Shown here piece by piece: positions 5,650 to 64,000 of a DNA stretch of 64,000 nt; position 1 is the first letter of the stretch; each line of letters starts with the position of its first letter. Made by a program: the position numbers and the translations under genes. Location of the stretch: NCBI RefSeq assembly GCF_004341165.1, contig NZ_SLZR01000013.1, forward strand, positions 1-64,000. The letters run 5' to 3'. The notes under the pieces were generated by a model. It was not told where the DNA came from and searched no databases. It was given only the letters and a program-made list of their open reading frames with translations. Origin of the DNA: Reinekea marinisedimentorum. Its GTDB lineage: Bacteria > Pseudomonadota > Gammaproteobacteria > Pseudomonadales > Natronospirillaceae.

Positions 5650-7084
5650 GGGAAACCCTCGTTGCTATACCGGATGATTGTTCAAGCCAGAAACGCTGCA
5701 TCAGGTTCTGACAAACCTGCAGGCGATAGTGCTGCGAAGCTCGGACATCGCTCATCGGTTTGAAATCGGCCGTTAAGGCAGCGGCAGCCTGCTGAATGTT
5801 GTGTTCGCTGAAGTCTTTGCCTTCCATCACCTGCGCCATAGATTCAGCAGCAACCGGTGTCGCAGCCATGCCGCCAAAACCGGATTTCACGTTGACCATA
5901 CGGTTTTCCACCAGCTGGAACGAAAGCACCAGCAGCACCGATGAAATATCGTCTTCCATACGTTTGGAAATTTTATAACAGGCCAGTTTTTGATCCGCCT
6001 GACGCGCCGGAATAAACACCGCCGAAATCACCTCATCTTCATGCAGCTGAGTGCGGCGATAGCCCAGGAAAAACTCATTGATGGGGATAACCCGTGAGCC
6101 GCGCTCGCAAATAACCTCGACCACAGCGTCCAATGCCAACAGCAACGGCGCCGGGTCACCAATCGGTGAGGCATTGGCCAGGCTGCCACCGAGCGTACCG
6201 GCATTGCGGATCTGGCTGGAGCCAAGGCGGTTAAACAGCTCGGAAGCTTCCGGGTAATGTTTAAGCAGCGCTGGCATAAATTGCTCGTAGGTGGCCATTG
6301 CCCCAATTTTCAGACCGTGCTCATCTTCGGTAATTGTCTTTAATTCCTGCACATCGACCAGCGAAATCACCTCTTCTGCCAGCTTCAGTTGTTGGGTAAA
6401 TTCCAGTGACAGGTCAGTACCACCGGCCACCAGCTTGGCTTGTGAGTAGCTGCTCTTCAGTTCAACCAGTTCCCTCAGGCTCTGTGGCAGGTAAAACACC
6501 CGGTCGCCATCGCTCAGGCCAGGGTTGCTACACAGCGTGCAGTTAAAGAATTTGTCGGCAGCCTGCATGAACGGCGCTGTCGTGCGCGGGTAACTGTACA
6601 TGCGCTCACAAGCTTCAATAATGGGTTTATAGCCGGTGCAGCGACACAGGTTGCCACCCAATGCGTGGATGACTTTGTCTTTACCGGGAAAGGCTGGCTC
6701 GTTCATATACAACGAGAACATGCTCATGATAAAACCGGGGGTACAGAAGCCACACTGCGAACCGTGGCATTCCACCATAGCCCGTTGTACCGGGTGCAGC
6801 TCTTCAAGCTTGGCATTGGCCGCAGCGGTTAAGCCTTCAACGGTGACCAGATGTTTGCCGTGCAGGCTGCCTACCAGCATCAGGCAGGCGTTGAGGTGTT
6901 TATAGTGAACCTTACCGTTTTCTTTTTGGCCCACCACGACGGTGCAGGCACCGCAATCGCCAGAAGCACAACCCTCTTTGGTGCCTGTAAGCCCTGTTTT
7001 GGTGCGCAGCCAATCCAGAACACTGAGTGTTGGTGCCACATCGTCCAGCTCGACCGGCTGTTCGTTTAGTAAAAATTCTATCAC
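5636..7084 (-). CDS. xdhA: Xanthine dehydrogenase, iron-sulfur/FAD subunit
   Basis: A 482-residue small subunit. The N-terminal plant-type ferredoxin domain has its [2Fe-2S] ligands at Cys39, Cys44, Cys47 and Cys67. The helical second [2Fe-2S] domain has Cys111, Cys114, Cys147 and Cys149 (CGFC and CRC). From about 190 a PCMH-type FAD domain follows, with AGGTDL and the NAGTLGGSLANASPIGD loop. It passes electrons from the XdhB Moco to NAD. It is the first gene of xdhABC and is preceded by a 157-base gap holding a perfect 14-base palindrome (7218-7231), a likely operator. Confidence 0.96.
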   Translation of the reverse strand: MIEFLLNEQPVELDDVAPTLSVLDWLRTKTGLTGTKEGCASGDCGACTVVVGQKENGKVHYKHLNACLMLVGSLHGKHLVTVEGLTAAANAKLEELHPVQRAMVECHGSQCGFCTPGFIMSMFSLYMNEPAFPGKDKVIHALGGNLCRCTGYKPIIEACERMYSYPRTTAPFMQAADKFFNCTLCSNPGLSDGDRVFYLPQSLRELVELKSSYSQAKLVAGGTDLSLEFTQQLKLAEEVISLVDVQELKTITEDEHGLKIGAMATYEQFMPALLKHYPEASELFNRLGSSQIRNAGTLGGSLANASPIGDPAPLLLALDAVVEVICERGSRVIPINEFFLGYRRTQLHEDEVISAVFIPARQADQKLACYKISKRMEDDISSVLLVLSFQLVENRMVNVKSGFGGMAATPVAAESMAQVMEGKDFSEHNIQQAAAALTADFKPMSDVRASQHYRLQVCQNLMQRFWLEQSSGIATRVSHAAL

Positions 7085-24256: not shown

Positions 24257-25582
24257 TCACAAAGCATCCATCGCCTGCCAAAGTTTTTTCGAAACCTTTC
24301 GGGCTTCCGCATAAATTGGCGCAACATCAAAACCAAAGGCGCGATCTTCATAAACAAACCGCCCTTCCACCATCACACTGTTTACGGCACCAGAGTTCAG
24401 GCCAAAAGCAAAATGCCCGGCCAGGTTTTCGGCCTGCAGCGGCGTTGGGCTGGTGTAATCCAGAACCGTTAGATCGGCCTTATAACCGGCCTCCAGCTTG
24501 CCAAACTGCGCATCAAAGTTACGCGCCAGCAGCTGGTTACCATTACCAAGGAAGTTCAGGAAGCTATCCGGCCACATAGGACCACCGGCATCCTTATGCT
24601 TGAAGTAAGCAAACTTCAGCTCTTCAAACATATCGGCACCAATACCATCGGTACCCAGAGCCACATTATTGAACTGCGCCAGCTTACCGTTATAGCCGAC
24701 ACCGTTATTCATATTGGAGCGGGCGTTGTGCACCAGAAAGGCATCGTGCTTATTCAGAATGTCACGATCCAAATCTGACAGGTACAAACCGTGCGCTACC
24801 AGCGTTTTACTATCGATCAAACCGAAAGCATCAAGCCGTTCGATTAAATCCTGCCCGTAGTGATGGTGACTGTGTGACACATCGTACAAATCTTCCGCAA
24901 CATGAATGTGCAAACCACGGCCGGTTTGTTGCTTGGCCATTGCCAGCATTCTCAGGCCTTCATTCGATACCGTAAAGGGTGCATGCGCGCCAATGTGCGC
25001 CTCTACCAGATAAGGCTCTTCGCCCTTCTGCTTTGCTTCATCAATGGCTTTGGCGAAACGGATATTTTCATCCACACCACGCGCCAGCTCTTCGGTGCCG
25101 CCATTACGGTCGGTGGTTTCAAAACAGGTCATCGCGCGCAGGCCTGCCTTCATAAAGCCCTGTTTTAAGGTATCGAGTGAGCCTTCAATATAATTCGGTG
25201 AGGCATGGTGATCGATTACCGAGGTACAGCCACTCTTAATGGCCTCCAGTGAGCAGATTAAGCCACTGTAGTACAGGCTTTCTTCATCCAACGCCCTATC
25301 CAGCCGCCACCACAGGTTTTTCAGTACCGAGATAAAATCCGGCGTCGGTGCAATATCCGCCATAATGCCGCGCGCCAAACCGGAATAAAAATGGTTGTGC
25401 GAACACACAATACCCGGCATCACCAGCTTACCGTTCATATTTTTTGTTTCAGCCGAGGGGTACTTTTCAGCCAGGCCATTACCTACCTCGACAATCACAC
25501 CGTTTTCAACGGCGATGTCGATACCCTCTTTCACCAGCGCCGGTTGAAACTGAACCGCCATCGCATTAAGTAAAATTTTCAT
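24257..25582 (-). CDS. ssnA: SsnA-type amidohydrolase (guanine deaminase-like)
   Basis: A 441-residue metal-dependent amidohydrolase of the TrzN/AtzA-SsnA group. Metal ligands are visible in SHNHFYSG (HxH), HIHVAED, and GTDGIGADM. Length and segments such as SGLARGIMAD match SsnA of E. coli. Its pairing with ygfK, transcribed just upstream, repeats the E. coli ygfK-ssnA gene pair and supports the name. SsnA proteins are inferred to deaminate or hydrolyse purine-derived compounds; the exact substrate is unproven. A stem-loop element separates it from ygfK. Confidence 0.88.
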   Translation of the reverse strand: MKILLNAMAVQFQPALVKEGIDIAVENGVIVEVGNGLAEKYPSAETKNMNGKLVMPGIVCSHNHFYSGLARGIMADIAPTPDFISVLKNLWWRLDRALDEESLYYSGLICSLEAIKSGCTSVIDHHASPNYIEGSLDTLKQGFMKAGLRAMTCFETTDRNGGTEELARGVDENIRFAKAIDEAKQKGEEPYLVEAHIGAHAPFTVSNEGLRMLAMAKQQTGRGLHIHVAEDLYDVSHSHHHYGQDLIERLDAFGLIDSKTLVAHGLYLSDLDRDILNKHDAFLVHNARSNMNNGVGYNGKLAQFNNVALGTDGIGADMFEELKFAYFKHKDAGGPMWPDSFLNFLGNGNQLLARNFDAQFGKLEAGYKADLTVLDYTSPTPLQAENLAGHFAFGLNSGAVNSVMVEGRFVYEDRAFGFDVAPIYAEARKVSKKLWQAMDAL

Positions 25583-49071: not shown

Positions 49072-49614
49072 TTACTGTGCTACTGCGGCAACACGCCGCT
49101 TAACACCAACAACGGCTTTCACTATCAACGCAACCGATGCCATCACCGCCACGCTGGAAAGCAACGTACCGCCAGCATACTGCACCAGCGCCCCGTAGGC
49201 TTCTGCACCCTGCACCACGCCGTGACAGGCGCTGAAAATACCCAGTGCCATCAGCGCCAGTGCCTTCAGTGCACCGGTTTTTAAATACAAAAGCAGGCAA
49301 ACCGGTAACGCAAACAGCGATGCCAGTACCAGCCCTTCAACGCTGTGTGCCTGCGACCAATACACCCCTGCGGTAAAACCAGCAACGAGCATAAAGCTAA
49401 CAAACGCTATTAAACCGAACGCAGCTTTTTTAGCGCTAACGGCAACGAAAACACCTACCAGCAACAAGGCTGCCAGATGGTCCCAGCCGGTCAGCGGGTG
49501 CAGTAAACCGGTCATAAAACTGCTGTGCTGTTCATGCCCGGCGTGTGCCAGTGCGCCAGTGCTCAGCCCTGCGCCTACCAACAAAACAATTGAAGAATGA
49601 ATCAGTTTTTTCAT
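49072..49614 (-). CDS. ureJ: HupE/UreJ nickel-transport membrane protein
   Basis: A 180-residue membrane protein with about six hydrophobic segments and a cleavable leader (ALAHAGHEQ). The HupE/UreJ signature [16 protein letters not shown] supplies histidine and aspartate for Ni binding. It supplies nickel for urease. It overlaps ureG by 4 bases and is the last gene of the operon. Confidence 0.92.
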
Positions 49615-50267
49615 ACAGAGGCCTCCATTGGCTCGGTAACAGAAACAGTGACATCGCGTTTTACAAGCATGCCCTGATTAACAATAAAGTTAATGATTTC
49701 GGCAACGCCATCGCCGCGTACCAAATTAGTAAACACAAAGGGCTTTTCACCGCGCATCTTTTTAGCATCGCGGTCCATCACTTCCAGCGAGGCATTCACC
49801 ATGGGTGCTAAGTCGGTTTTGTTGATGATGAGCAAGTCCGATTTGGTAATACCCGGCCCGCCCTTGCGCGGAATTTTATCGCCAGCGCAAACATCAATAA
49901 CGTACAGGGTTAAATCGGAAAGCTCGGGGCTGAAGGTGGCGCTTAAGTTATCGCCGCCGCTTTCAACCAGCACCAGTTCTAAATCCGGGTGGCGCTCCTG
50001 CAGCTCATCAATAGCCGCCAGGTTCATAGAGGCATCTTCACGAATGGCGGTGTGTGGGCAGCCGCCGGTTTCCACGCCCATAATGCGGTCGGCTTCCAGC
50101 GCTTCGTGGCGCAGCAGAAACTCGGCATCTTCACGGGTGTAAATATCGTTGGTCACCACGGCCAGATTATAGTGTTCGCGCATGGCTGAACACAGCTGGC
50201 GCAACAGTGCCGTTTTACCGGAGCCAACCGGCCCACCCACGCCTACGCGTAAACATTGTGTACTCAT
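49611..50267 (-). CDS. ureG: Urease accessory GTPase UreG
   Basis: A 218-residue SIMIBI GTPase. The P-loop GPVGSGKT is at 12-19 and the nickel site CPH ([13 protein letters not shown]) follows; [18 protein letters not shown] is family-specific. It drives nickel insertion into UreC with UreDFE. Confidence 0.97.
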
Positions 50268-50269
50268 AT

Positions 50270-50932
50270 TTAACTCCTGAATAATCGTGAATATTGGGTT
50301 TCATGCCAGGCGCTGGCCATGGCAAAGGCAGGCAATGTCATGCCGATGTTTTCGTCATGCACGGCCAGCCCGTGTTCAATGGCCTGCTCTATTTCCGGCA
50401 TCATGGCGAGCAAAACCTTTTGTGCCGAAGTTTGCCCCAGCGGCACGGTTTTGCAGGCGGCGGCGACCTGGTTTTCCAGCCATGCCCATAACCAGGCCGA
50501 GCAACAGCCGTGAATATCGATGCCGTAATGCACGCAAGCTTTTGCGAACAACACCAGGTAGCTGAACTCGCGCGCCTGCACCGGCAGGCCAATGCCAAGG
50601 CTGCCCAGTAAGCGATAGAAAGTAAGCCCTAACTTTTGCTCTTCCTGCAGCAGTTCACGGGTTTCGCGATTGGCCAGCAGCACCTGCTGCCAATACTGCA
50701 CCTGTGCTAAATCGTCTGCTTGCCAGGCCGTGTACAGGCGCTTTAACAGAGGGATATCCAAATTCGCCTGCGCGTGGCTGAGAATGGGCGAAAGCCATTC
50801 ATGCAGGCTTTCTTCGCTGTTCACCCAACCCATTTCCACCGCCGATTCCAAACCCTGACTGTAGGCAAACGCGCCTATCGGCAGGCTGGGGCTGGTTAAG
50901 TGCAGCAGCGACAACAATGCCTGGGTGTTCAT
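50270..50932 (-). CDS. ureF: Urease accessory protein UreF
   Basis: A 220-residue all-helical UreF. The diagnostic block [22 protein letters not shown] is near the N-terminus. It acts as a GTPase-regulating bridge between UreD and UreG. Two bases separate it from ureG; it overlaps ureE by one base. Confidence 0.96.
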
Positions 50933-51420
50933 CAGTGGGCGTGCTCCCCATGGCTGTGATTGTGTTCATCGTGACTGTGTCCGTGATGATGACCGCCGCC
51001 GTGATAAGCGCCGTTTTCCGGGTTAAACGGGGCGTTGTGGTGGGTAACCGTTAAGCCAAACATTTGCACCATGTCTTCCAGTACATGGTCCGGCTGAAAG
51101 CGCAGCCACAGCTCACCAATGGCCATCGGCACATGGCGGTTACCCAGGTGATAACAGGCTTTCGAGAAGGTCAGCCAATCGGTCGCCACAGCGGTGACCA
51201 CCGGTTCGGCTTCCGCCTCAACTGCGAATATCTGGCCGCATTCGCTGAACAGAAAGTCGCCTTCGCGCAGCACTTCACCGCGCACCAGAAAAATGCCAAC
51301 CTCCTGCCCGGCTTTGCTTTCGGCTTTAAAGCGGCCCTTCTGCCGCAGCTGGTAAGGCAGTACAACGGCATCGGTTACCGTGCCGTGATGATGGTCCGCC
51401 CGTCGGGTAATTTTCAGCAT
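50932..51420 (-). CDS. ureE: Urease nickel metallochaperone UreE
   Basis: A 162-residue UreE starting at MLKITRRADHHHG (51420); an upstream in-frame stretch of 37 residues lies inside ureC. The peptide-binding and metal-binding domains end in a histidine-rich tail (GGGHHHGHSHDEHNHSHGEHAH) that stores nickel. Function: delivers Ni(II) to UreG/UreC. Confidence 0.96.
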   Translation of the reverse strand: MLKITRRADHHHGTVTDAVVLPYQLRQKGRFKAESKAGQEVGIFLVRGEVLREGDFLFSECGQIFAVEAEAEPVVTAVATDWLTFSKACYHLGNRHVPMAIGELWLRFQPDHVLEDMVQMFGLTVTHHNAPFNPENGAYHGGGHHHGHSHDEHNHSHGEHAH

Positions 51421-51433
51421 AACAATCTCCTTA

Positions 51434-53140
51434 TCAGAACAGCGTATAGCGCTGTGCCAGTGGCAGTTCGGTGGCCGGCTCGCAAGTAAGCAACTGGCCA
51501 TCGGCACGTACCTCGTAGGTTTGCGGGTCAACGGTGATGTTGGGCATGTAGCTGTTGTGCACCATGTCGTTCTTGGTCACCGTGCGGCAGCCTTTGCACG
51601 GCACCAGCGCCCGTTGCAGGCCCAGACGTTCGGCCAGGCCGTTATCGATCGCGGCCTTGCTGGTGAACGTCACCGAAGTCGCCGCTGGCGCACTGCCGAA
51701 GCCGCCAAACATATAGCGGTAATGCACCGGTTGCGGTGTCGGGATCGAAGCATTGGCATCGCCCATTGGCGCGGCGGCAATAAAGCCACCCTTAATAATC
51801 AGTGACGGCTTAATGCCGAAAAAGGCAGGCTTCCAGACCACGATATCCGCCAGCTTGCCCACTTCCAGCGAGCCGACTAAATGATCGATGCCGTGCGCCA
51901 GCGCCGGGTTAATGGTGTATTTGGCAATGTAGCGTTTGGCACGGAAGTTATCGGCGCCAATGTCGGCATCTTCCGGCAGCAAGCCACGCTGCACCTTCAT
52001 CTTGTGCGCGGTTTGCCAGGTGCGGCAGATCACTTCGCCCACACGGCCCATGGCTTGCGAGTCGGAAGCGATCATCGAGAACGCGCCCAAATCGTGCAAA
52101 ATGTCTTCGGCGGCAATGGTTTCTTTGCGAATACGGGAATCGGCAAAGGCGACATCTTCCGGAATGTTTGGGTCCAGATGGTGACACACCATCAGCATGT
52201 CCAGATGCTCATCCACGGTGTTGACGGTATAGGGCCGCGTGGGGTTGGTTGAAGAAGGCAGCACGTTCGGCTCTTTACAGGCGACGATGATATCCGGTGC
52301 ATGCCCACCTCCGGCACCTTCGGTGTGGTAGGTGTGAATGGTGCGGCCCTTAAAGGCGGCCAGAGTATCTTCCACAAAACCGGATTCGTTCAGCGTGTCG
52401 GTATGAATAGCAATCTGCACGTCGTACTTTTCAGCCACGCTCAGGCAGTTGTCGATGCTGGCCGGTGTGGTGCCCCAGTCTTCGTGCAGCTTTAAACCAC
52501 AGGCACCGGCTTCCAGTTGTTCTTCCAGTGCTTCCGGCAAGCTGGCGTTGCCCTTACCTAAGAAGCCAAAGTTCATCGGCAGGGTATCGGTGCTTTCCAG
52601 CATTTTGGCCAGGTTCCACGCGCCCGGCGTACAGGTGGTGGCGTTGGTGCCAGTCGCCGGGCCGGTGCCGCCACCGAGCATGGTGGTGGTGCCAGACATC
52701 AGCGCTTCTTCTATCTGCTGCGGGCAAATAAAGTGAATATGCGCATCAACCGCACCGGCGGTGACGATATTGCCCTCGCCGGCAATCACCTCGGTACTGG
52801 CGCCAATGTTGATGGTGACATCGGGCTGAATATCCGGGTTGCCGGCCTTGCCAATGGCATGAATCAGGCCATCTTTAATGCCGATATCGGCCTTCACGAT
52901 GCCCCAGTGATCCAGAATCAGCGCATTAGTGATGACGCAATCGACCACCTCAGCGCGGCACTTCTGGCCCTGGCCCATGCCATCGCGAATCACCTTACCG
53001 CCGCCGAACTTCACTTCGTCGCCATAGGTGGTGAAGTCTTTTTCAACCTGAATAAACAGCTCGGTATCGGCCAGGCGAAGCTTATCGCCCACGGTGGGGC
53101 CGTACATTTCGGCATAGGCCTGACGGGAAATTTTAGCCAT
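51434..53140 (-). CDS. ureC: Urease alpha subunit
   Basis: A 568-residue nickel urease large subunit. Ligands are His134/His136 (HIH), carbamylated Lys217 (GLKLHEDWG), His246, His272 and Asp359 (IASDSQAMG). The flap cysteine and catalytic histidine are in MVCHHLDPN (Cys319, His320). Complete and typical length. Urea to ammonia and carbamate. UreABC are three separate chains. Confidence 0.98.
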
Positions 53141-53143
53141 ACG

Positions 53144-53464
53144 TTACTCCTTAGCCTCGCTCAGCTTGCCCATAATTTCGCCACGGAAGCCGTACACCTC
53201 TTCGCTGCCGGCCAGAGCCACCAGCTCTACCTTGCGGCTTTGGCCCGGCTCGAAGCGCACTGCCGTACCGGCCGCAATGTTCAGGCGCATGCCTCTGGCC
53301 TGGCTGCGCTCAAAATCCAGCGCCGGGTTGGTCTCAAAAAAATGGTAGTGGCTGCCCACCTGAATGGGCCGGTCGCCATGGTTAATCACCGAAAGCTCAA
53401 CCGTTTTGCGGCCCGCGTTCAGTTCAATCGGTTGCTCTGCGAGTACATATTCACCGGATGTCAT
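53144..53464 (-). CDS. ureB: Urease beta subunit
   Basis: A 106-residue UreB, the beta-sandwich subunit of the trimer (UreABC)3. Signature: [19 protein letters not shown]. It precedes ureC by 3 bases. Confidence 0.97.
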
Positions 53465-53473
53465 GAGCGGCTC

Positions 53474-53776
53474 CTATTGAATGGGGTTATGAACGGTCAC
53501 CAGCTTGGTACCATCCGGGAAGGTCGCTTCTACCTGTACTTCCGGCAGCAGCTCGGCAATGCCCTCCATCACCTGATTTCGGGTGAGCAGCGCCCTGCCC
53601 TCACTCATCAGTTGCGCCACGGTTTTGCCATCGCGCGCGCCTTCCATAATGGCGGCAGAAATATAGGCTGCCGCCTCCGGGTAATTCAGTTTCACACCCC
53701 GCGCCAGGCGACGCTCGGCCACCAGTGCCGCGGTGTACAGCAACAGCTTATCCTTATCTCTGGGTGATAATTCCAT
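53474..53776 (-). CDS. ureA: Urease gamma subunit
   Basis: A 100-residue UreA. Signature: [22 protein letters not shown] and the [12 protein letters not shown] block. Typical length. It begins the ureABC structural genes, 11 bases after ureD. Confidence 0.97.
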
Positions 53777-53787
53777 GGGTGACTCCT

Positions 53788-54651
53788 TTAGGTGTTCCAG
53801 ATACGCGGCACGCAGGCTGGCGTACCGTTCATCAGCGGGCGCAGCTGTTGCCAGCAGGCGCGAAGTTGGGTTTGTGCCTGCTCACTGCAGGCACCTAAGT
53901 AGCGCACCACCAGCACGTTTAAGCGGCAGGTGACGCTGAGCGTGGTCATGGCCTGTTGCTGTAACAGCGAGTGCAGCTGTTCCACGGCCTGTTCCGGATC
54001 TGCCAGGCCAAAGGCAACCAGCGTGCCGGACACCAGATTGCCGTTAAAGCCGCTGATGGCGCTGATTAATGGATCGTCCGCGGCCAGAAACTGGCGCTCC
54101 AGCAGCAGCGGAACATCGTCGTGATACAGCGCCAGCCGCTGCTCTACACTGCCCGATGCAAACGGCAGGTTGCTTTTGGGGCGGCCCAAACAGAACACAT
54201 CCAGGCCGAAGAACTGCGCCTGGCCATACAGGTTAATGTGCGTGCTCAGGCGGCCATGCGCGCCATCGAACACGATGGTTTCCATGGGCAGCCATTCGCA
54301 CTGACTGTCGGTCACCTCGATATCCACCCGCTGCTTCTGGGCGATGCCGTTGCTGTCGGCGCGGTAAATTTTGCCGGCCGAAGGCGTAGTGACCAGCACC
54401 TTACTGCCTGGCTCGCAGGTGAGCTGAATGTTCAGATCATCGCCACTGACCAAGCCGCCCGGTGGATGCAGCAGGTACACATGGCACACCTCGCCCTCCG
54501 GGTAGAACGGCCGCTGCACGCGCAACGGGCCAAGAAACTGCATTCGGTGCATGCGCGTTTTGGCCTCGCCCTTGTCAAAGCCGAGCGATAAAAACGCTGG
54601 CCAGTGACGCTGGCTTTCGGCCTTGTTGAGCTGATCGGTCAGTTCTGTCAT
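53788..54651 (-). CDS. ureD: Urease accessory protein UreD
   Basis: A 287-residue UreD (UreH). It has the [21 protein letters not shown] block and [10 protein letters not shown] segment typical of the family. It forms the scaffold for UreFG in nickel loading. It is four bases after urtE and so links the transport and hydrolysis genes into one transcript. Confidence 0.96.
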
Positions 54652-54655
54652 GCCA

Positions 54656-55351
54656 TTACACCGTTAAGTATTCTTTCACCAGCTGATCGTTCAGCTCGGT
54701 CATTTCGCCGAATGCGACCTGGCGGCCACGGTCGAGAATGCAAAAGTTATCGGCCACCTTGCGGGCGAACGGCAGCTTTTGCTCCACCAGTAACACGGTG
54801 AGGCCAATCTCTTCGTTCAACCGGCGAATGATGTCGCCAATTTCGGCAACCACGTTGGGCTGAATACCTTCGGTCGGCTCATCCAGAATTAAAAAGCCGG
54901 GGTCGGTGACCAGTGCGCGGCCAATGGCCAACTGCTGTTGCTGACCGCCGGATAAATCACCCCCGCGTCGATGCAGCATTTCCTTTAACACCGGAAACAG
55001 CTCGAAGATGTAATCGGGCACCTGACGCAGGCCATCGCGGCGCGCCGGCAGACCAATGCGCAGGTTTTCTTCCACGCTCAGCAGTGGGAATATCTGCCGC
55101 CCCTGCGGTACATAGCCAATGCCCATGGGCGCGCGTTTTTCTGCCGCCATGCCAGCAATATTCTGGCCTTTGTAGCTGATACTGCCGCTCTTCACCGGCA
55201 GCAGCCCCATAATGCTCTGCACCAGCGTGGTTTTACCCACGCCGTTGCGGCCCATTAAACAGGTGCATTTGCCTTCCGGCACGGTCATGGATAAATCCCA
55301 CAGGGTGTGGCTTTGGCCATAAAACTGGTTGAGAGAATCGATCTGAATCAT
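54656..55351 (-). CDS. urtE: Urea ABC transporter ATP-binding protein UrtE
   Basis: A 231-residue LivF-type ATPase. Walker A GRNGVGKTT, signature LSGGQQQQLA, Walker B FLILDEPTEGIQP. It overlaps urtD by 4 bases. Powers high-affinity urea uptake. Confidence 0.96.
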   Translation of the reverse strand: MIQIDSLNQFYGQSHTLWDLSMTVPEGKCTCLMGRNGVGKTTLVQSIMGLLPVKSGSISYKGQNIAGMAAEKRAPMGIGYVPQGRQIFPLLSVEENLRIGLPARRDGLRQVPDYIFELFPVLKEMLHRRGGDLSGGQQQQLAIGRALVTDPGFLILDEPTEGIQPNVVAEIGDIIRRLNEEIGLTVLLVEQKLPFARKVADNFCILDRGRQVAFGEMTELNDQLVKEYLTV

Positions 55352-56187
55352 GCTTCGGCCCCCAAATAAACTTCAACGACCTTCGGGTTGCTCTGCACCT
55401 GCTGCATGGTGCCCTCGGCCAGCACCGAACCCTGATGCAGCACCGTGACTTCGCTGGCAATGGAGCGCACAAAATCCATATCGTGCTCCACCAGAATAAT
55501 GGTGTGCTCGCCGGCCAGGTTGGTGAGCAGCTCGCCGGTGCGGTCCATTTCCTGATGTGTCATACCAGCGACCGGTTCATCCACCAGCAGCAGTTTTGGG
55601 CTTTGCATCAGCAGCATGCCAATCTCCAGCCACTGCTTTTGCCCGTGCGAAAGCGCACCGGCGGGCAGATTGCGTTGGCCTACAAGGCCAATCAGCTGCA
55701 GCACATGATCGATGCGGTCAACCTGACTCGGCGTTAAGCGCGCCAACAGCGTTGGCATCACGCCCTTATCGCCCGCCATGGCCAGCTCTAAATTGCAGAA
55801 CACGCTTTGCAGCTCAAATACAGTGGGCTTCTGGAATTTTCGGCCAATACCCGCCTGGGCGATTTCCGGCTCGTCCATTTCCAGCAGGTTAATCTTCTGG
55901 CCAAACCAGGCCTGGCCGGTATCGGGCCGGGTTTTGCCGGTGATGATGTCCATCATGGTGGTTTTACCGGCACCGTTGGGGCCGATAATGCAGCGCAGCT
56001 CACCCTCTTTGATATAGAGGTTTAAATCGTTAATGGCCTTGAAGCCATCGAAGCTGACACTGATGCCTTCCAAATAGAGCAGAAAGCCCTGGCCGACTTC
56101 GAGCATCGGGTTTTGCTGCGGCATCATGAAATCGTAGACATGGTCGCGGTCGACCGTCTGGCGAATAAAATCGACAACATTGGTCAT
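55348..56187 (-). CDS. urtD: Urea ABC transporter ATP-binding protein UrtD
   Basis: A 279-residue LivG-type ATPase. Walker A GPNGAGKTT near 72, signature LSHGQKQWLE, Walker B LLLVDEPVAGM. A longer N-terminus than LivG, as in UrtD. Overlaps urtC by 4 bases. Confidence 0.96.
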   Translation of the reverse strand: MTNVVDFIRQTVDRDHVYDFMMPQQNPMLEVGQGFLLYLEGISVSFDGFKAINDLNLYIKEGELRCIIGPNGAGKTTMMDIITGKTRPDTGQAWFGQKINLLEMDEPEIAQAGIGRKFQKPTVFELQSVFCNLELAMAGDKGVMPTLLARLTPSQVDRIDHVLQLIGLVGQRNLPAGALSHGQKQWLEIGMLLMQSPKLLLVDEPVAGMTHQEMDRTGELLTNLAGEHTIILVEHDMDFVRSIASEVTVLHQGSVLAEGTMQQVQSNPKVVEVYLGAEA

Positions 56188-57311
56188 GCGTTCACCTCTT
56201 TCGGCTTGCTGAAGCCAGTCAATTTCTTAAACAGACCCACCAGACCATTCGGCAGGAACAGCGTCACCAGTACAAACAGCGCACCGAGCGAGAACAACCA
56301 AACCTCGGGCAATGCTGCCGTTAAATAGGTTTTGGCGTAGTTCACCGCCAGCGCACCAATCACTGCACCGTACAGTGTGGCGCGACCACCCAGGGCGACC
56401 CACACCACCAGCTCGATGGAGATCAGCGGCGCAAATTCAGACGGGTTAATAATGCCCACCTGCGGCACATACAGCGCCCCGGCGATACCGGCGAGCACGG
56501 CAGAAAAACAGAAGATCCACAGCTTGAAGTTTTCCACCTTATAGCCGGTGAAGCGGGTGCGGGCTTCGGCATCGCGAATCGCCAGTGCGACGCGACCCAA
56601 ACGGCTGGTCACAATATAACGGCAGGCCAGGTAACCCAGCGCCAGCGCCAGCCCGGAGCAGAAAAACAGCGTTAAGCGGGTGGCGTCGGACTGTAAATCA
56701 AAACCCAGAATGTCTTTAAAATCGGTCAGACCGTTGTTGCCGCCAAAGCCCATTTCATTGCGGAAGAAGGCCAGCATCAGCGCATAGGTGAGCGCCTGCG
56801 TGATGATGGAAAGGTACACACCGGTCACCCGCGAACGGAACGCCAGCCAGCCGAACACAAAGGCTAACAGGCCCGGCACCAGCATGATCATCAGGGCAGC
56901 AAACCAGAAGTTATCGAAGCCATACCAAAACCAGGGCAGCTCCTGCCAGTTCAGGAACACCATGAAATCCGGCAGGATCGGGTCGCCATAAACGCCGCGA
57001 TCACCAATCTGGCGCATCAGGTACATGCCCATGGCATAGCCGCCCAGCGCAAAGAACGCGCCGTGACCCAGGCTTAAAATACCCAGATACCCCCAAACCA
57101 GATCAACCGCGACAGCCAGCAGAGCGTAGGTTAAATACTTGCCCATCAGGGTGACGGTGTAGGTTGAAACGTGCAGCGCCGAGCCCTGCGGGAACAGCGC
57201 ATTGGCGCCGATAACCACCGCCATCACAATGCCCAGTACCGCTAAAAAGCTAACCGTGGAGCGGTCGAATAGCCGCTGGTTTGAATCTAAGGATGCTTGC
57301 GGATTCATCAT
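56184..57311 (-). CDS. urtC: Urea ABC transporter permease UrtC
   Basis: A 375-residue LivM-type permease with about ten segments. Signatures: VDLVWGYLGILSLGHGAFFALGGYA and YVPQVGIINPSEFAPLISIE. Start at ATG 57311, overlapping the urtB stop as TAATG; a longer reading to 57422 is inside urtB. Confidence 0.96.
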   Translation of the reverse strand: MMNPQASLDSNQRLFDRSTVSFLAVLGIVMAVVIGANALFPQGSALHVSTYTVTLMGKYLTYALLAVAVDLVWGYLGILSLGHGAFFALGGYAMGMYLMRQIGDRGVYGDPILPDFMVFLNWQELPWFWYGFDNFWFAALMIMLVPGLLAFVFGWLAFRSRVTGVYLSIITQALTYALMLAFFRNEMGFGGNNGLTDFKDILGFDLQSDATRLTLFFCSGLALALGYLACRYIVTSRLGRVALAIRDAEARTRFTGYKVENFKLWIFCFSAVLAGIAGALYVPQVGIINPSEFAPLISIELVVWVALGGRATLYGAVIGALAVNYAKTYLTAALPEVWLFSLGALFVLVTLFLPNGLVGLFKKLTGFSKPKEVNA

Positions 57312-58972
57312 TAACCCTCCGCCGAACGGCCCTTTTGCGGGAATAGTCCGCGGGGCTTCTTCTGAATGAATAGGATGATGAACACCAGCACGAGGATTTT
57401 CGCCAGTACGGCGCCGGCCCACGGTTCCATCAGTTTATTGGCAATACCCAGCGACATACCCGCCACCAGCGTGCCCCACAGGTTGCCGACACCGCCGAAC
57501 ACTACCACCATGAACGAATCGATAATGTAGGCCTGGCCCAGGTTAGGACCCACGTTAGTCAGTTGGCTCAGCGCCACGCCAGCCATACCGGCAATGCCCG
57601 AGCCCAGGCCGAAGGTCATGGCATCGACCCATTCTGAGCGCACACCCATGGCGCGGGCCATGGCACGGTTTTGGGAAACAGCGCGCACCTCGATACCCAG
57701 GCGGGTGTAGCGCAAAATAAAGAACAACAGCGCGAACACGATTAAACAGAACACAATGATGTACAGCCGGTTGAGCGTGAAGCTGAGCAGCGGGTTCAGC
57801 TCGACAACCCCGGTCATGAATTCCGGTGTGGCCACCGAGCGGTTGAGCGGCGAAAACACCGAGCGCACCGCCTGTTGCAGAATCAGGCTGATACCGAAGG
57901 TGGCCAGCAGCGTTTCCAGCGGGCGACCATATAAAAAGCGGATCACGCCGCGTTCGATACCAATACCCACCAGGCCGGAAACCACAAAGGCAGCGGGGAT
58001 CGAGATAAAGATCGATGCCGCTAAATGGTCGGGCATCAGCGTTTGAATCACGTAAGTCGTATAGGCACCGAGCATCATCAACTCGCCGTGCGCCATATTG
58101 ATCACACCCATCACGCCAAAGGTAATGGCCAGACCAATCGCCGCCAGTACCAATACCGAGCCCAGGCTTAAACCAAAGAACAGGGTTTCGGCCAGCTCGG
58201 CCACCTTCACGCGGCCATCGAGTTTAGTGAGTGCGCTTTCGGCACTGCGGGCAAGCGCAGCTTCCGGCTCGGTTGCTAAAAACTGCGTTACCGCAATGCG
58301 CGCTGCCGGCTGGTAGCTGGCACCTAAGGTGCTCAGTGCCGCCAGTTGCTGATCGATTGCCGAGCCGGGCGCTTGCAGGCGATAAATGGCCAGCGCGACA
58401 TCAATCAGTTCGCGCACGGTTCGGTCTTGCTCGGTCGCCAGTTGCTCGCTCAGGCGGCTGAACAGGGCTTCGTCAATATCACCCAGGGTTTGTTTAACCG
58501 CAGCGGCACGGTTGGCCGCCAGCGGCGAAGATAAATTCAGCAGCGCCAGCTCGGTTTTCAGCTGACCGCGCAGTTGGTTATTAATGCCAACGCGCTTAAC
58601 CCGGCGTTTGCTGACGGTTTCGGTTTCGGCGTTTGCATCGGTAAATAACGGGCGAATGATGGGCTTGGAGCCGTTTTCACCAACGATGGTGACCAACTGA
58701 TTTTCAGACCGGTACACATACAGCTGGCCTTCCAGCAGCATGGTTAATACATCGAACGCACGCTCGTCACCGCTTTGGCTGATCAGGCGAATGCCCTGGC
58801 TGATGTCGTTAAAATCAGAAGATAGCAGTTGATCCAGGCCACTCTTAAAGGCCGTTTGTTCGGTGCTGTTGGCCGATAGCGGGGCGAGTAGCATTGCCAC
58901 CAGCAACAGGTGCCATATTGCCGCAAACTTGCGGTGGGTATGGCGGGTTAGACGGGTTATGGCATTAACCAT
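57311..58972 (-). CDS. urtB: Urea ABC transporter permease UrtB
   Basis: A 553-residue LivH-type permease. It has a signal-like N-terminus and an extracytoplasmic helical domain of about 240 residues, typical of UrtB but absent in LivH. The transport domain from about 255 has GVMGVINMAHGELMMLGAYTTY and the ATPase-contact loop. Begins after GAGGAATCGAT. A 640-base gap holding the 77-bp repeat array separates it from urtA. Confidence 0.95.
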   Translation of the reverse strand: MVNAITRLTRHTHRKFAAIWHLLLVAMLLAPLSANSTEQTAFKSGLDQLLSSDFNDISQGIRLISQSGDERAFDVLTMLLEGQLYVYRSENQLVTIVGENGSKPIIRPLFTDANAETETVSKRRVKRVGINNQLRGQLKTELALLNLSSPLAANRAAAVKQTLGDIDEALFSRLSEQLATEQDRTVRELIDVALAIYRLQAPGSAIDQQLAALSTLGASYQPAARIAVTQFLATEPEAALARSAESALTKLDGRVKVAELAETLFFGLSLGSVLVLAAIGLAITFGVMGVINMAHGELMMLGAYTTYVIQTLMPDHLAASIFISIPAAFVVSGLVGIGIERGVIRFLYGRPLETLLATFGISLILQQAVRSVFSPLNRSVATPEFMTGVVELNPLLSFTLNRLYIIVFCLIVFALLFFILRYTRLGIEVRAVSQNRAMARAMGVRSEWVDAMTFGLGSGIAGMAGVALSQLTNVGPNLGQAYIIDSFMVVVFGGVGNLWGTLVAGMSLGIANKLMEPWAGAVLAKILVLVFIILFIQKKPRGLFPQKGRSAEG

Positions 58973-59612: not shown

Positions 59613-60896
59613 CTAGTAATTCTGGCCAGAGCACTTACCCGTTTTCACGTTGTAGTTACCGCAGGCCAGCGGCTGACGCCAATCGGCAATCAGGTCTTTA
59701 GAACCCGGCAGGAAATCGGACCAGGCATCACCGGCCACCAGGCCCGAGGTACGCCATACGGTCTGGAACTGGCCGTCATCCTGAATTTCGCCAATCAGTA
59801 CCGGCTTGGTGATGTGATGGTTCGGCATCATGGTGGAATAGCCACCGGTCAGGTTCGGTACCGCAACACCGATCATCGCCTCGCCGACCGCCTCTGGGTC
59901 TGTGGTACCGGCTTTCTTCACCGCCTCGACCCACATGTTGAAGCCAATGTAGTGCGCTTCCATTGGGTCGTTGGTAACGCGGTCTTCATTGCCGATGAAG
60001 GCGTGCCATTTTTCGATGAACTCGTCATTCACTTCGCTTTCATCGCTCATGAAGTAGTTCCAGGCAGCCAGGTGGCCGACCAATGGGGTGGTATCCATAC
60101 CGGAAAGTTCTTCTTCACCAACCGAGAACGCCACCACCGGAATCTCATCAGCGGTGATGCCCTGGTTACCCAGCTCTTTATAGAACGGTACGTTGGCATC
60201 GCCATTCACGGTAGAAACTACTGCAGTCTTCTTACCGGCCGAGCCAAACTTGCTGATATCGGCAACAATCGACTGCCAATCGGAATGACCAAACGGCGTG
60301 TAGTTGATCATGATGTCGGCATCCGCCACGCCCTTATCTTTCAGGTAGGCTTCAAGAATTTTATTGGTGGTGCGCGGGTACACATAGTCGGTACCGGCCA
60401 GCACCCAGCGTTCAACGCCCTGATCCATTAAATAGTCCACCGCCGGAATGGCCTGCTGGTTAGGCGCAGCGCCGGTGTAAAACACGTTTTTGGAAGATTC
60501 TTCACCTTCGTACTGAACCGGGTAGAACAGCAGACTGTTGAGTTCTTCAAATACCGGCAAAACCGACTTACGGGAAACCGATGTCCAGGCGCCGAACACC
60601 GCATCCACCTCTTCTTTAGAGATCAGCTCACGCGCCTTTTCCGCAAACAACGGCCAGTTAGAGGCTGGGTCTACGACGACGGCTTCCAACTGCTTACCGA
60701 GCAACCCGCCCTTTTTGTTTTGCTCGTCCACCAGCATCAGCATGGTGTCTTTCAGCGTGGTTTCACTGATTGCCATGGTGCCGGAGAGTGAATGTAAAAC
60801 GCCTACTTTGATGGTGTCGTCTGCAGCCAGAGCCATTCCGCTCAGCAGCGATGCAGCCAGAACAGAACTTGCTAAGAGTGTCTTTTTCATGTGCAT
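59613..60896 (-). CDS. urtA: Urea ABC transporter substrate-binding protein UrtA
   Basis: A 427-residue periplasmic binding protein of the Leu/Ile/Val family. Signal peptide about 24 residues (ALAADDT). The mature protein has IKVGVLHSLSGTMAISETTLKD and the NWPLFAEKARELI, FYPVQYEGEESSKN blocks typical of UrtA. It captures urea and is first in the operon. Its stop lies 9 bases from the REP array. Confidence 0.97.
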   Translation of the reverse strand: MHMKKTLLASSVLAASLLSGMALAADDTIKVGVLHSLSGTMAISETTLKDTMLMLVDEQNKKGGLLGKQLEAVVVDPASNWPLFAEKARELISKEEVDAVFGAWTSVSRKSVLPVFEELNSLLFYPVQYEGEESSKNVFYTGAAPNQQAIPAVDYLMDQGVERWVLAGTDYVYPRTTNKILEAYLKDKGVADADIMINYTPFGHSDWQSIVADISKFGSAGKKTAVVSTVNGDANVPFYKELGNQGITADEIPVVAFSVGEEELSGMDTTPLVGHLAAWNYFMSDESEVNDEFIEKWHAFIGNEDRVTNDPMEAHYIGFNMWVEAVKKAGTTDPEAVGEAMIGVAVPNLTGGYSTMMPNHHITKPVLIGEIQDDGQFQTVWRTSGLVAGDAWSDFLPGSKDLIADWRQPLACGNYNVKTGKCSGQNY

Positions 60897-61150
60897 GGTC
60901 CCTACATGGTTTTTCAGTTATCGAATGAACAATTGAAACTGCCGGGGCTTTGGCTGGCCCGATTCACAGTGAGCTCAGTATTGAAAAAACGATGCAAGCG
61001 GGATATGCGCAAAACAGGTCAGCGGACTACGTTGAATGACGCATATTTTCAATGTAAAAGTGCATTTACTATCGCGCATGCTAATAATGATTCAGTTTTA
61101 AGGCAGGCAGCCCGCCAGCCCAACCGAGTTTTGGGAGCGTAATTACACTC
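60897..61150. promoter_or_regulatory. Divergent control region of urtA and the sensor kinase
   Basis: About 254 bases must carry both promoters. No convincing sigma-54 (GG-N10-GC) or NtrC dyad was found by eye. A weak GGGAG lies 13 bases before the kinase ATG. Confidence 0.55.
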
Positions 61151-64000
61151 ATGCAGCAGGTTCCGGTTAACCGCCGCAAGTACAACAAACTGGTCGCCAA
61201 CGAACTACTGGAAGACTTCGCCCTGCGCTTTACCGCCAAGCGCGCGCGTAAATGGTCATCGGGGTGGATCGCCAACACTGCGCTGGGCATTGTGTCGTTT
61301 CTGGTACTGGAGGCACTGGGCGGCTCCATCACGCTTTCGTACGGAACCATCAACGCCTTATGGGCCATTGCTGCCGTTTCTGGTGTGGTCATCTTCAGCG
61401 GCATCCCTATTTGCTATTACGCCGCCAAATATGGTGTGGATATCGATCTGCTCAGCCGCGGAGCGGGCTTTGGCTACATTGGCTCAACCATTGTTTCGCT
61501 CATTTATGCCTCGTTCACCTTTATCTTTTTTGCGCTGGAAGCTGCGATTATGTCGATGGCGATACAGCTGCTGTTCGGCATTCCGCTATTTTTGGGCTAC
61601 ATCATCAGCGCGGTGGTGGTGATACCGGTGGTGATAATGGGCATTACCAACATCAGCCGGTTTCAGATGGTTTCGCAGCCGTTATGGCTGGCGCTGCAAT
61701 TAATACCGCTCTACTTTGTGTTCAGCCACCCGGATGCTCAGCTCGATAGCTGGCTGAGCTACGCTGGTGTTACCGGTGATAAACAAGAATTCAACTGGCT
61801 GTTGTTTGGTGGCGCTTCAGCGGTGCTGCTTTCCATCGTGGCGCAGATTGGCGAGCAGGTAGACATACTGCGTTTTTTACCAGAGCAGAAAGAATGCGGC
61901 CGTACCAAGTGGTGGCTTTCTATGCTGTTCGGTGGCCCGGGCTGGATGCTATTTGGCGCGGCGAAGCTGGCGCTGGGCAGCTTTTTAGCCTGGCTGGTAA
62001 TCAGCCACGGCTTCAGCCCGGCCGAGGCCGGCGACCCGGCGCACATGTACCTGCAAGTGTTCCGCTACATGCTTTCCGATACCCAACTGGCGCTGATTGT
62101 GGCCAGTGTGTTCGTGATTATCTCGCAACTGAAAATCAATGTGGCCAACGCCTATGCCGGCTCGCTGGCGTGGTCTAACTTTTTCTCTCGGCTCACCCAC
62201 AGCCACCCCGGCCGCGTTGTGTGGATGGTGTTCAACGTTATTATCGCGCTGCTGCTGATGGAGCTGGGCGTTTACCAGCTGCTGGAAAAAACCCTGCAGG
62301 TTTATTCAGTGCTGGTGTTGGCGTGGATCGGCACGCTGGTGGCCGATTTGATCATCAACAAGCCGCTGGGTTTAAGCCCTAAAGGCATTGAGTTTAAGCG
62401 TTCGCAGCTGTTCGATGTAAACCCGGTAGGGCTGGGCTCTATGGTGATTGCCTCGGCCGTGGGGCTGGCGGCGCATCTGGATGTTTTCAACGAATTCGTC
62501 AAGGCGTTTGCCTCTTACATTGCCTTTGCCCTGCCCTTTATTACCGCGCCAATCATTGCGCTGCTCACGCGTAGCCGGTTTTATCTGGTTCAGCCCAATC
62601 ACGAAATACCGGTGCACCTGCATGGCGAAATACAGTGCGATATTTGCGAGCACAGCTTTGAGCATGAAGACATGGCCTTCTGCCCGGCCTACGGTGGCCA
62701 TATTTGCTCGCTGTGCTGTTCTTTGGATGTTCGCTGCCAGGACAAGTGCCGTAAAAAAGGCACGCTGGCGCAACAGATCCGTTCTCTGCTCAGGCCCATT
62801 GTGCCGAAGAGAATGCTCGGCTTGCTCGATTCGCCCATCAGCCATTTTTTGCTGGTACTGCTGTTAGTCAGCAGTTTTATGGGGGCCATCTTCCTGATTG
62901 CCTACAGCCAAATACCCGACCTTGCCCCGGAACATTTAAGCAGCATGACATCGGGCCTTGTACGCGCCTTTATCATGCTGTTGATTCCCGTTGGTATCAT
63001 CAGCGGCCTGTTTGTATTGGCACATAACAGCAGTAAAGCCGCGATCAAAGAATTACAGGCGCATGCGCAACTGCTCAGCCAGGAAATCACCGCGCACGAA
63101 ATCACCTCGCAAAAACTGGAAAAAGCCAAGCAACAGGCAGAAACCGCCAACAACGCCAAAAGCCGCTACCTGGCCGGGCTCAGTCACGAACTGCGTACAC
63201 CGCTGAACGTTCTGCTCGGTTATGCTCAGTTGCTGAGCCACGATGAAGAAATCCCACCGAAGAAACGTGAGTATGCGCAAATACTGCGCCGCAACGGAAA
63301 GCACCTATCCGACCTGCTGGAAGGCCTGCTGGAAATATCCAAAATTGAAGCCGGCCGTCTGGAATTACAACGCGAACAGATAGACCTGCACGGGCTGCTC
63401 AACGAACTGGCCGAAATGTTCCGCCTGCAGGCAAACCAGAAAGGACTCGGCTTTGAATTTACCTACAACCCTTCCCTGCCGGTACATATTGCAGCCGATA
63501 AGCAACGGCTGCGGCAAATTCTGATTAACCTGCTCAACAACGCCGTGAAATACACCGAAGCTGGCACCGTCAGCTTTAACGTCAGTTACCGCAACCAGGT
63601 GGCCAGCTTTGAAATTAGCGACACCGGCGATGGCTTAACGCAAAAAGACATTGAACAAATTTTTAAGCCTTTTGAGCGCATTGAAAATGACAACTCGAAA
63701 ATCATTTCCGGTACCGGCCTTGGGCTGACCATTTCCAACGCACTGGCCAGCCTGATGGGCGGCGAAATTTCCTGCAGCAGCACGCCCGGCAAAGGCAGCA
63801 CCTTCACCCTGAAGCTGATGCTTTCTGCCATTGATACGCCAAGCCTGAAACAGCCCCTACAAAGCAAAAACATTGTGGGTTACCACGGAGACCGACAAAC
63901 CATTCTGGTGGTGGATGACATTGAAGATCAGCGCATGCTGGTAAAAAACATCCTCAGCCCGCTGGGCTTTAATTTACTGCTGGCAGAAAGCGCAGAAGCG
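61151..64000 (+). CDS. NCS1 permease fused to hybrid histidine kinase (3' end outside window)
   Basis: An open frame of 950 codons from ATG 61151 to the window edge. Residues about 35-480 are an NCS1-type permease (purine/cytosine/allantoin family), with GVDIDLLSRGAGFGYIGS and VNPVGLGSMVIASAVGL blocks. A cysteine-rich patch at about 496-533 (CDIC...CPAY...CSLCC...CQDKC) resembles a zinc site. Two further membrane spans (about 565-635) and a coiled coil lead to HisKA (His679 in SHELRTP), a complete HATPase with GTGLGLTIS, and a receiver domain starting near 917 (Asp922-Asp923 visible; the phospho-Asp lies beyond). It is divergent from urtA. Transport-coupled sensing of a nitrogenous ligand is inferred, as in CbrA. 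Confidence 0.9.
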   Translation, partial: MQQVPVNRRKYNKLVANELLEDFALRFTAKRARKWSSGWIANTALGIVSFLVLEALGGSITLSYGTINALWAIAAVSGVVIFSGIPICYYAAKYGVDIDLLSRGAGFGYIGSTIVSLIYASFTFIFFALEAAIMSMAIQLLFGIPLFLGYIISAVVVIPVVIMGITNISRFQMVSQPLWLALQLIPLYFVFSHPDAQLDSWLSYAGVTGDKQEFNWLLFGGASAVLLSIVAQIGEQVDILRFLPEQKECGRTKWWLSMLFGGPGWMLFGAAKLALGSFLAWLVISHGFSPAEAGDPAHMYLQVFRYMLSDTQLALIVASVFVIISQLKINVANAYAGSLAWSNFFSRLTHSHPGRVVWMVFNVIIALLLMELGVYQLLEKTLQVYSVLVLAWIGTLVADLIINKPLGLSPKGIEFKRSQLFDVNPVGLGSMVIASAVGLAAHLDVFNEFVKAFASYIAFALPFITAPIIALLTRSRFYLVQPNHEIPVHLHGEIQCDICEHSFEHEDMAFCPAYGGHICSLCCSLDVRCQDKCRKKGTLAQQIRSLLRPIVPKRMLGLLDSPISHFLLVLLLVSSFMGAIFLIAYSQIPDLAPEHLSSMTSGLVRAFIMLLIPVGIISGLFVLAHNSSKAAIKELQAHAQLLSQEITAHEITSQKLEKAKQQAETANNAKSRYLAGLSHELRTPLNVLLGYAQLLSHDEEIPPKKREYAQILRRNGKHLSDLLEGLLEISKIEAGRLELQREQIDLHGLLNELAEMFRLQANQKGLGFEFTYNPSLPVHIAADKQRLRQILINLLNNAVKYTEAGTVSFNVSYRNQVASFEISDTGDGLTQKDIEQIFKPFERIENDNSKIISGTGLGLTISNALASLMGGEISCSSTPGKGSTFTLKLMLSAIDTPSLKQPLQSKNIVGYHGDRQTILVVDDIEDQRMLVKNILSPLGFNLLLAESAEA

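Follow-up and report, generated by a model that had tools for sequence, protein, structure and literature searches.

We analyzed a 64,000-nucleotide stretch of the Reinekea marinisedimentorum genome (contig NZ_SLZR01000013.1, positions 1 to 64,000; the window), in which a hybrid histidine kinase gene starts at position 61151 and runs divergently from urea transport (urt) and urease (ure) genes. The N-terminal half of this kinase is predicted to fold as an NCS1 permease. The protein is probably a transceptor, an NCS1-type sensor that detects urea or short-chain amides and switches on the genes for their uptake and breakdown. Behind this reading are the predicted fold, the order of the domains, the linkage to urea and amide genes, and a palindrome with its genome-wide association.

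The kinase gene is a single open frame from the ATG at 61151 on the plus strand, and it is still open at the window end, 64000. In the genome contig it stops at C13:64513, and the full product has 1120 residues, of which the window holds the first 950. The protein has the marks of a hybrid histidine kinase: the phospho-acceptor His679 in HisKA, both the N and the G boxes in HATPase_c, the receiver Asp966, and an adjoining regulator gene. The regulator gene (C13:64500-65402) overlaps the last 14 bases of the kinase gene and encodes a response regulator of 300 residues, in which Pfam detects a receiver and a DNA-binding domain of the LuxR type. In the AlphaFold model, two helices lie C-terminal to a Cys-rich patch, and the second is predicted to continue without a break to the end of the modeled stretch, directly before HisKA. 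The original prediction had read one frame with an NCS1-like permease, a Cys-rich patch, two extra spans, HisKA with His679, HATPase, and the start of a receiver, and the frame, Pfam, and AlphaFold bear it out. The Pfam scan that it proposed matched HisKA, HATPase_c, and Response_reg but gave no PF02133 for the permease half. The features of the gene are as follows.

61151-64000, plus strand: NCS1-type hybrid histidine kinase, first 950 of 1120 residues (open frame, Pfam)
61235-62584, plus strand: NCS1-like permease core, about residues 29 to 478 (AlphaFold, Foldseek; hhalign residues 29 to 444)
62636-62749, plus strand: Cys-rich patch, residues 496 to 533 (sequence comparison; each Cys in 95/95 kinases)
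62834-63121, plus strand: two further helices, residues 562 to 586 and 593 to 657 (AlphaFold)
63155-63355, plus strand: HisKA, residues 669 to 735, with His679 at 63185-63187 (Pfam)
63497-63823, plus strand: HATPase_c, residues 783 to 891 (Pfam)
63902-64000, plus strand: start of the receiver, whole domain residues 918 to 1027 (Pfam)

By predicted structure and profile comparison, the N-terminal half is an NCS1 fold, although it lies below PF02133 detection. Residues 1 to 620 had no Pfam match, with PF02133 absent even at E ≤ 1, and no NCBIfam family fell in this region among the 25 shown of the 149 listed. Neither the kinase family nor the family of stand-alone permeases turned up anything related when used as a profile against the Protein Data Bank sequences. 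The AlphaFold model of this half, calculated from an alignment of 59 sequences, had a pLDDT of 83.6 and a pTM of 0.85. In a Foldseek comparison with solved structures, chains of CodB and Mhp1 took ranks 1 to 5 (E 1.6e-9 to 4.2e-8, target TM 0.66 to 0.74), and SLC5-type structures ranked below them, from E 1.9e-6. An hhalign alignment of 34 family members to 8 canonical NCS1 proteins reached 98.4% over 377 columns (score 119.6), versus 29% (score 38.6) in the control with 6 SLC5 proteins. One of four stand-alone relatives scanned, from Klebsiella, passed the PF02133 cut-off of 23.5 bits with 38.4 bits. The Foldseek ranks and the hhalign value uphold the NCS1 identity claimed for this half, and on the two hhalign results we rejected membership in the SLC5 family of CbrA and CrbS.

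The permease half resembles Mhp1 and CodB (PF02133) in its fold and core motifs. It differs from them in having a fused kinase, in escaping detection by PF02133, and in helix 8, where hhalign aligned the canonical S/T-T-N with K328-I329-N330 of the window protein. Sodium coupling of the permease half is doubtful, because the Ser/Thr residues that align with K328-I329 belong to the Na2 site in Mhp1. Between the permease and HisKA there was no Pfam match above cut-off that could mark a STAC domain; whether the library has a STAC model was not checked.

Homologous kinases are linked to genes for urea and amide use. In the window, urtA lies divergent from the kinase gene and is followed by urtBCDE and then by the urease genes; UrtA scored 558.8 bits with TIGR03407 (cut-off 492.75). 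We searched 80 other loci by tblastn with 14 neighbor proteins; these loci are the best 80 of 548 matches, not a random sample, and the window's own locus (L002) is not counted. A regulator match was present in 77 of them, and in 76 it lay no more than 1.5 kb behind the kinase. UrtA was found in 68 loci, FmdA in 42, an aliphatic amidase in 18, and at least one of UreA, UreC, and UreD in 16. Loci were classed as urea type when they had a UrtA closer to that of the window, or urease, and as amide type when they had a second type of UrtA, FmdA, or the aliphatic amidase. By this division there were 26 urea loci, 48 amide loci, and 6 with neither, 4 of which end at contig edges near the kinase. Further loci came from samples of relatives and of the class (35 loci, not all distinct kinases, since two overlap and one is a stand-alone form only, and a few are cut by contig ends), and 20 had at least one query gene. 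Linkage of homologs to nitrogen genes, which had been forecast, appears in 74/80 of the best loci and 20/35 of the others. In the 369-genome sample, UrtA (E ≤ 1e-60) was present in 14/18 genomes with the permease family versus 73/351 without it (p 9e-7).

The linkage to urt and ure supports the urea theme of the original prediction, but urea is too narrow a description, given the 48 amide loci versus 26 urea loci. On a tree of 54 labeled kinases plus that of the window, the operon type switches three times or more. Therefore, one sensor family serves both urea and amide operons. A second Urt-like transporter had already been suggested as an amide carrier for Bradyrhizobium in 2010, in the available text of PMC3098086. 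Such a transporter beside formamidase and amidase, described there and for Pseudomonas veronii (PMC13209695, available text), corresponds to the operons that lie opposite the amide-type kinases; the terms "histidine kinase" and "two-component" do not occur in the available parts of these two papers.

The neighborhoods of stand-alone permeases give the strongest hint to the ligand of the sensor. We aligned 12 free-standing family members, of which 8 have urease, formamidase, or amidase genes in their neighborhood. In Acinetobacter lwoffii the permease gene is followed by urease genes, and A. ursingii has a 99.8% identical copy, likewise before urease genes. In Klebsiella and in genome G332, urease genes are followed by the permease. 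The Moraxella osloensis permease gene is divergent from fmdA and has an FmdB-type gene behind it; in Tsukamurella, a single gene separates the permease gene from a zinc-ribbon gene and fmdA. In Arthrobacter U41, an aliphatic amidase gene follows the permease gene. Methylovirgula has the permease behind a kinase pair that is divergent from fmdA-fmdB, with an amidase gene next on the other strand. In genome G317, the permease gene is divergent from a kinase gene, followed by fmdA, fmdB, and an amidase gene. Because neither the G317 nor the G332 genome had a UrtA match, the stand-alone permease may substitute for the ABC transporter there. We see an even chance that this NCS1 subfamily carries urea and short-chain amides, that its stand-alone members serve uptake, and that a single fusion to a hybrid kinase made it the dedicated urea and amide receptor in many Proteobacteria, one that has a regulator of its own and an operator of its own (TACGTCA-NN-TGACGTA, or TACG-N8-CGTA in Bradyrhizobium). 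At another locus (L206:8949-13370), a more distant NCS1-like permease (PF02133, 36.4 bits) is followed by a double-domain protein, which we take to be nitrilase-like, and by an Urt-like binding protein.

We compared conservation in 95 kinases and the 12 stand-alone permeases. All eight cysteines of the patch (C496, C499, C511, C519, C522, C523, C529, and C533) are present in 95/95 kinases. A C-x2-C ... C-x2-C pattern occurs in 9/12 stand-alone permeases, 2 of which have all eight cysteines. E130, K328, N330, and N333 are identical in every kinase and every stand-alone permease, and 89 near-invariant residues are common to both groups. Glu54 in the first helix (window 61310-61312) is present in 95/95 kinases; the stand-alone permeases have Phe (10 of 12) or Gln (2 of 12) at this position. 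By this comparison, E54 may be involved in the conversion of the transporter into a sensor.

The sensor might also transport, so that the kinase would report flux, as proposed for CbrA, and the protein would add to uptake. This is compatible with sensing of urea or amides and concerns only the mode; we regard it as possible but rather unlikely. The near-invariant core held in common with stand-alone permeases speaks for it, as does the description of CbrA as a transceptor with histidine uptake in the available text of PMC13022988. Against it, a UrtA-type ABC transporter is already encoded in most of the 80 loci, and the accessible part of PMC5764959 presents Ks-Amt5 as a fused ammonium transporter that binds its substrate and drives its kinase without translocating.

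It is unlikely that the system controls urt and fmd with a permease half that senses something else, such as the sodium or proton gradient, purines or allantoin, or the rate at which an unrelated nutrient is taken up, the urea and amide genes being mere output. Canonical NCS1 members carry nucleobases, hydantoins, and allantoin. NCBI names the stand-alone kin allantoin permease, cytosine permease, or hypothetical protein, and purines had been named in the original prediction. The window does contain xanthine dehydrogenase large and small subunit genes (TIGR02965 and TIGR02963; window 3280-7081, minus strand), which are probably the purine genes that the prediction meant. However, about 54 kb separate these genes from the kinase gene, and no purine gene was found among the recurrent neighbor clusters that could be named, several clusters being unnamed. 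On both grounds a regulon for purines or allantoin was rejected as the leading reading, and nothing was found that points to this part of the prediction. The kinase-free permeases in urease, formamidase, and amidase loci instead point to the substrate of the permease itself.

A palindrome lies at urtA and fmdA, the genes that the regulator would be expected to control. The motif set was 58 gaps between urtA and the kinase gene, including that of the window, of which 42 were used (those also in the tree, plus the window's). A palindrome-forced search returned ATACGTCAatTGACGTAT with a score of 574, versus 36 for shuffled sequences. Its core, TACGTCA-NN-TGACGTA, occurs with 0 to 1 mismatches in 24/58 gaps and with 3 or fewer in 38/58. 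The rest of the loci (1.15 Mb) has five sites with 0 to 1 mismatches, and all five lie 86 to 160 bases before an fmdA match (L048, L054, L056, L065, and L094). The 20 gaps without the core include 17 from Bradyrhizobium or Afipia; 15 of the 20 carry TACG-N8-CGTA, always 64 to 69 bases from the urtA match. In L057, L059, L060, and other Bradyrhizobium gaps, a variant palindrome, TACGCAAGAT(T/C)GCGTA, stands in place of the common one. The DNA-reading helix of the regulator may differ too in loci with this variant.

The association holds across genomes. In the relatives sample (57 genomes, outside the motif set), sites with 0 to 1 mismatches occurred in 12/17 kinase-bearing versus 7/40 kinase-less genomes (p 2e-4). 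In all 12 site-bearing kinase genomes, a site that was read precedes urtA or fmdA. In the 7 kinase-less genomes, with one site read each, none precedes these genes; the reading leaves out five further sites, of which one is in the kinase-bearing G001 and four are in kinase-less genomes. In a sample of the phylum, the site was present in 28/52 kinase-bearing versus 33/346 other genomes (p 1e-12), and of the 32 sites in the kinase-bearing group, 25 are no more than 20 kb away from the kinase gene. Some species of the training loci may recur in the relatives and phylum samples, which are therefore not fully independent of them. We rejected the idea that the palindrome is a mere mark of the kinase promoter, given the sites before distant urtA genes and the second copies before fmdA. 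The urtA gene that it precedes is on a different contig from the kinase in G005 and G020 and about 9 to 24 kb from it in G001, G003, G008, G046, and G050. The window has one copy between urtA and the kinase gene:

61028-61043, no strand assigned: weak copy of the palindrome, 3 mismatches of 14 (pattern scan)

By a scaled shuffle control, about 0.005 such matches are expected in the urtA-kinase gap; in the whole window, 2 were observed versus 1.24 expected. The nearest relative (L041) also has the 3-mismatch form in its own gap.

A nitrogen-starvation regulator working with NtrC, its permease half without a specific ligand, would fit the sigma-54-like -24/-12 element that occurs (1 mismatch or fewer) in 22/58 urtA-kinase gaps versus 6/290 shuffled ones, but it is very improbable, as an inert anchor would not need the 89 near-invariant residues and a dedicated palindrome stands at urtA and fmdA even far from the kinase.

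We return to the reading in which the kinase senses urea or amides. Four points of it are inferred: which ligand binds, which way the response goes, how the permease is coupled to the kinase, and that the neighboring regulator is the protein that binds the palindrome. Ks-Amt5 and CbrA serve as models. Urea or a short-chain amide would bind in the NCS1 pocket of the sensor, and binding or the transport cycle would alter the shape of the permease. From there the change would reach the kinase by way of the Cys-rich patch, both final helices, and the long helix that leads into it. His679 would then be phosphorylated, and the phosphate would reach the adjoining LuxR-type regulator via the receiver of the kinase or directly. 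The phosphorylated regulator would bind TACGTCA-NN-TGACGTA at the promoter of urtA (and of fmdA). As a result, urt would be turned on together with ure or fmd genes, in some species perhaps from a sigma-54-type promoter.

Several points weigh against this scheme. Its ligand, transport, and phosphorylation steps were derived from genes and models. The 80 loci were selected as the best matches, and in the 35 other loci no query gene was nearby in 15, a few of which are at contig ends. Four of the 12 stand-alone permeases have no urease, formamidase, or amidase gene nearby. In A. baumannii the permease and a kinase are back to back, and the stretch had no match to the enzyme genes used as queries; the others are Streptomyces angustmyceticus, S. 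chartreusis, and Arthrobacter NicSoilB11. PF02133 had no match in 3/4 of the stand-alone permeases scanned, and the allantoin and cytosine labels of the stand-alone kin favor other substrates. No site with 1 or fewer mismatches was found in 24/52 kinase genomes of the phylum sample or in 5/17 of the relatives sample, the window's genome included. The site in the window, with its 3 mismatches, is weak on its own. At 2 mismatches the genome of the window has 4 sites versus 13 for a reversed-pattern control, and none is beside the query genes.

The permease part is widespread. It was found in 17/57 genomes of the relatives sample, in 18/369 of the class sample (G332 with the stand-alone form only and G093 with a partial match), and in 55/398 of the phylum sample (3 of the 55 weak or partial); the genome of the window is counted in all three. 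One collection scan gave at least 548 confirmed relatives, of which the best 80 were kept; these are nearly all from Alpha-, Beta-, and Gammaproteobacteria, plus two cyanobacteria. In a plasmid collection, 542 of 72,556 records had a match, and 342 of the 542 were from Klebsiella. On the Klebsiella pneumoniae plasmid CP024516 (L163, 5897-16252), amiF-urtEDCBA is divergent from the kinase and regulator genes, with a one-mismatch palindrome at 11867. A paper on Klebsiella ST307 covers a plasmid UrtABC/AmiF cluster, and "two-component" and "sensor" do not occur in its available text (PMC5506382).

The kinases formed one group (SH-aLRT 98 in a 74-row tree; 0.978 in a 110-row FastTree), which suggests one origin of the fusion. 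Both trees have a long-branched outgroup, and the 74-row tree was made by a quick method without bootstrap. The stand-alone permeases of G317 and Methylovirgula are nearest to the kinases; the split that decides their sister placement, with the kinases or with the other stand-alone forms, has a support of 0.35. Two short kinases without a receiver in their translations (L209:8666-11347 and L210:8502-11156) lie beside fmdA and fmdB, and they fall inside the kinase group of the tree.

Fusions of transporters to kinases are known for the SLC5 type (CbrA, PMC13022988; CrbS, PMC5715377) and the Amt type (Ks-Amt5, PMC5764959), as described in the available parts of these papers. We found no paper on an NCS1-kinase fusion in the open-access literature; most subscription journals lie outside that search. 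According to the same texts, CbrA/CbrB and CrbS/CrbR also combine a LeuT-type transporter with a histidine kinase. CrbS is likewise a hybrid kinase, and its partner CrbR is a LuxR-family regulator that acts on an inverted repeat (PMC5715377). In contrast to the NCS1 domain and Cys-rich patch of the window kinase, CbrA and CrbS have SLC5 and STAC, and they serve histidine or acetate, whereas urea and amide genes lie beside window-type kinases. The trigger of CbrA is described as still open (PMC13022988, available text). Ks-Amt5 is similar in that a nutrient transporter is re-used as the sensor of a kinase in nitrogen metabolism; it differs in its Amt fold and its ammonium ligand, and its partner regulator is not identified in the accessible part of PMC5764959. 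In Ectopseudomonas guguanensis, a hybrid kinase and a LuxR regulator are reported beside a second urtABCDE, probably the same gene set, and the available text describes no permease domain, ligand, or binding site (PMC13296017). The kinase half of the window protein is 25.9 and 27.4% identical to the SLC5-type kinases found in the same genome and in one congener. The one in the same genome, on contig C4 (L223:2076-5522), is a transporter-kinase of 1148 residues.

If the proposed reading is correct, kinase fusions would be known for a third transporter family, after SLC5 and Amt. Many Proteobacteria may detect urea and small amides, which are common sources of nitrogen, by this system. The permease occurs with and without the kinase, sometimes in adjoining genes, which makes it a good setting for studying how transporter motion drives a kinase. 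The reading predicts the substrate of permeases beside urease and amidase genes that are now named otherwise. It also points to the likely switch of the urea/formamidase cluster on the Klebsiella plasmid, records of this kind being common in the plasmid collection.

The other genes of the urea cluster are listed below. Apart from UrtA, UrtD, and UreC, the window neighbors were named by order and by similarity within our own set.

59613-60896, minus strand: urtA, urea ABC transporter binding protein (TIGR03407)
57311-58972, minus strand: urtB (order and translation)
56184-57422, minus strand: urtC (order; mechanical start of the open reading frame, true start probably further in)
55348-56187, minus strand: urtD (TIGR03411)
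54656-55351, minus strand: urtE (order)
53788-54651, minus strand: ureD (order; no library scan)
53474-53776, minus strand: ureA (order; no library scan)
53144-53464, minus strand: ureB (order; no library scan)
51434-53140, minus strand: ureC (TIGR01792 and PRK13207)
49611-51531, minus strand: ureE, ureF, and ureG (order; no library scan)

Antisense to ureC, at window 52705-52990 on the plus strand, is a match to the Rfam 5' ureB small RNA family (94.6 bits), which may reflect the conserved ureC coding sequence alone. Elsewhere in the window (24257-25579, minus strand), there is a gene for an SsnA-type aminohydrolase (TIGR03314, 676.6 bits), a family named for selenium metabolism. Beyond the window, behind the regulator gene (L002:7978-16001; C13 from about 65977), are genes that, from their translations, we take to be type I-E cas-like, and the same region has a stretch resembling a CRISPR array, with repeat-like reading frames.

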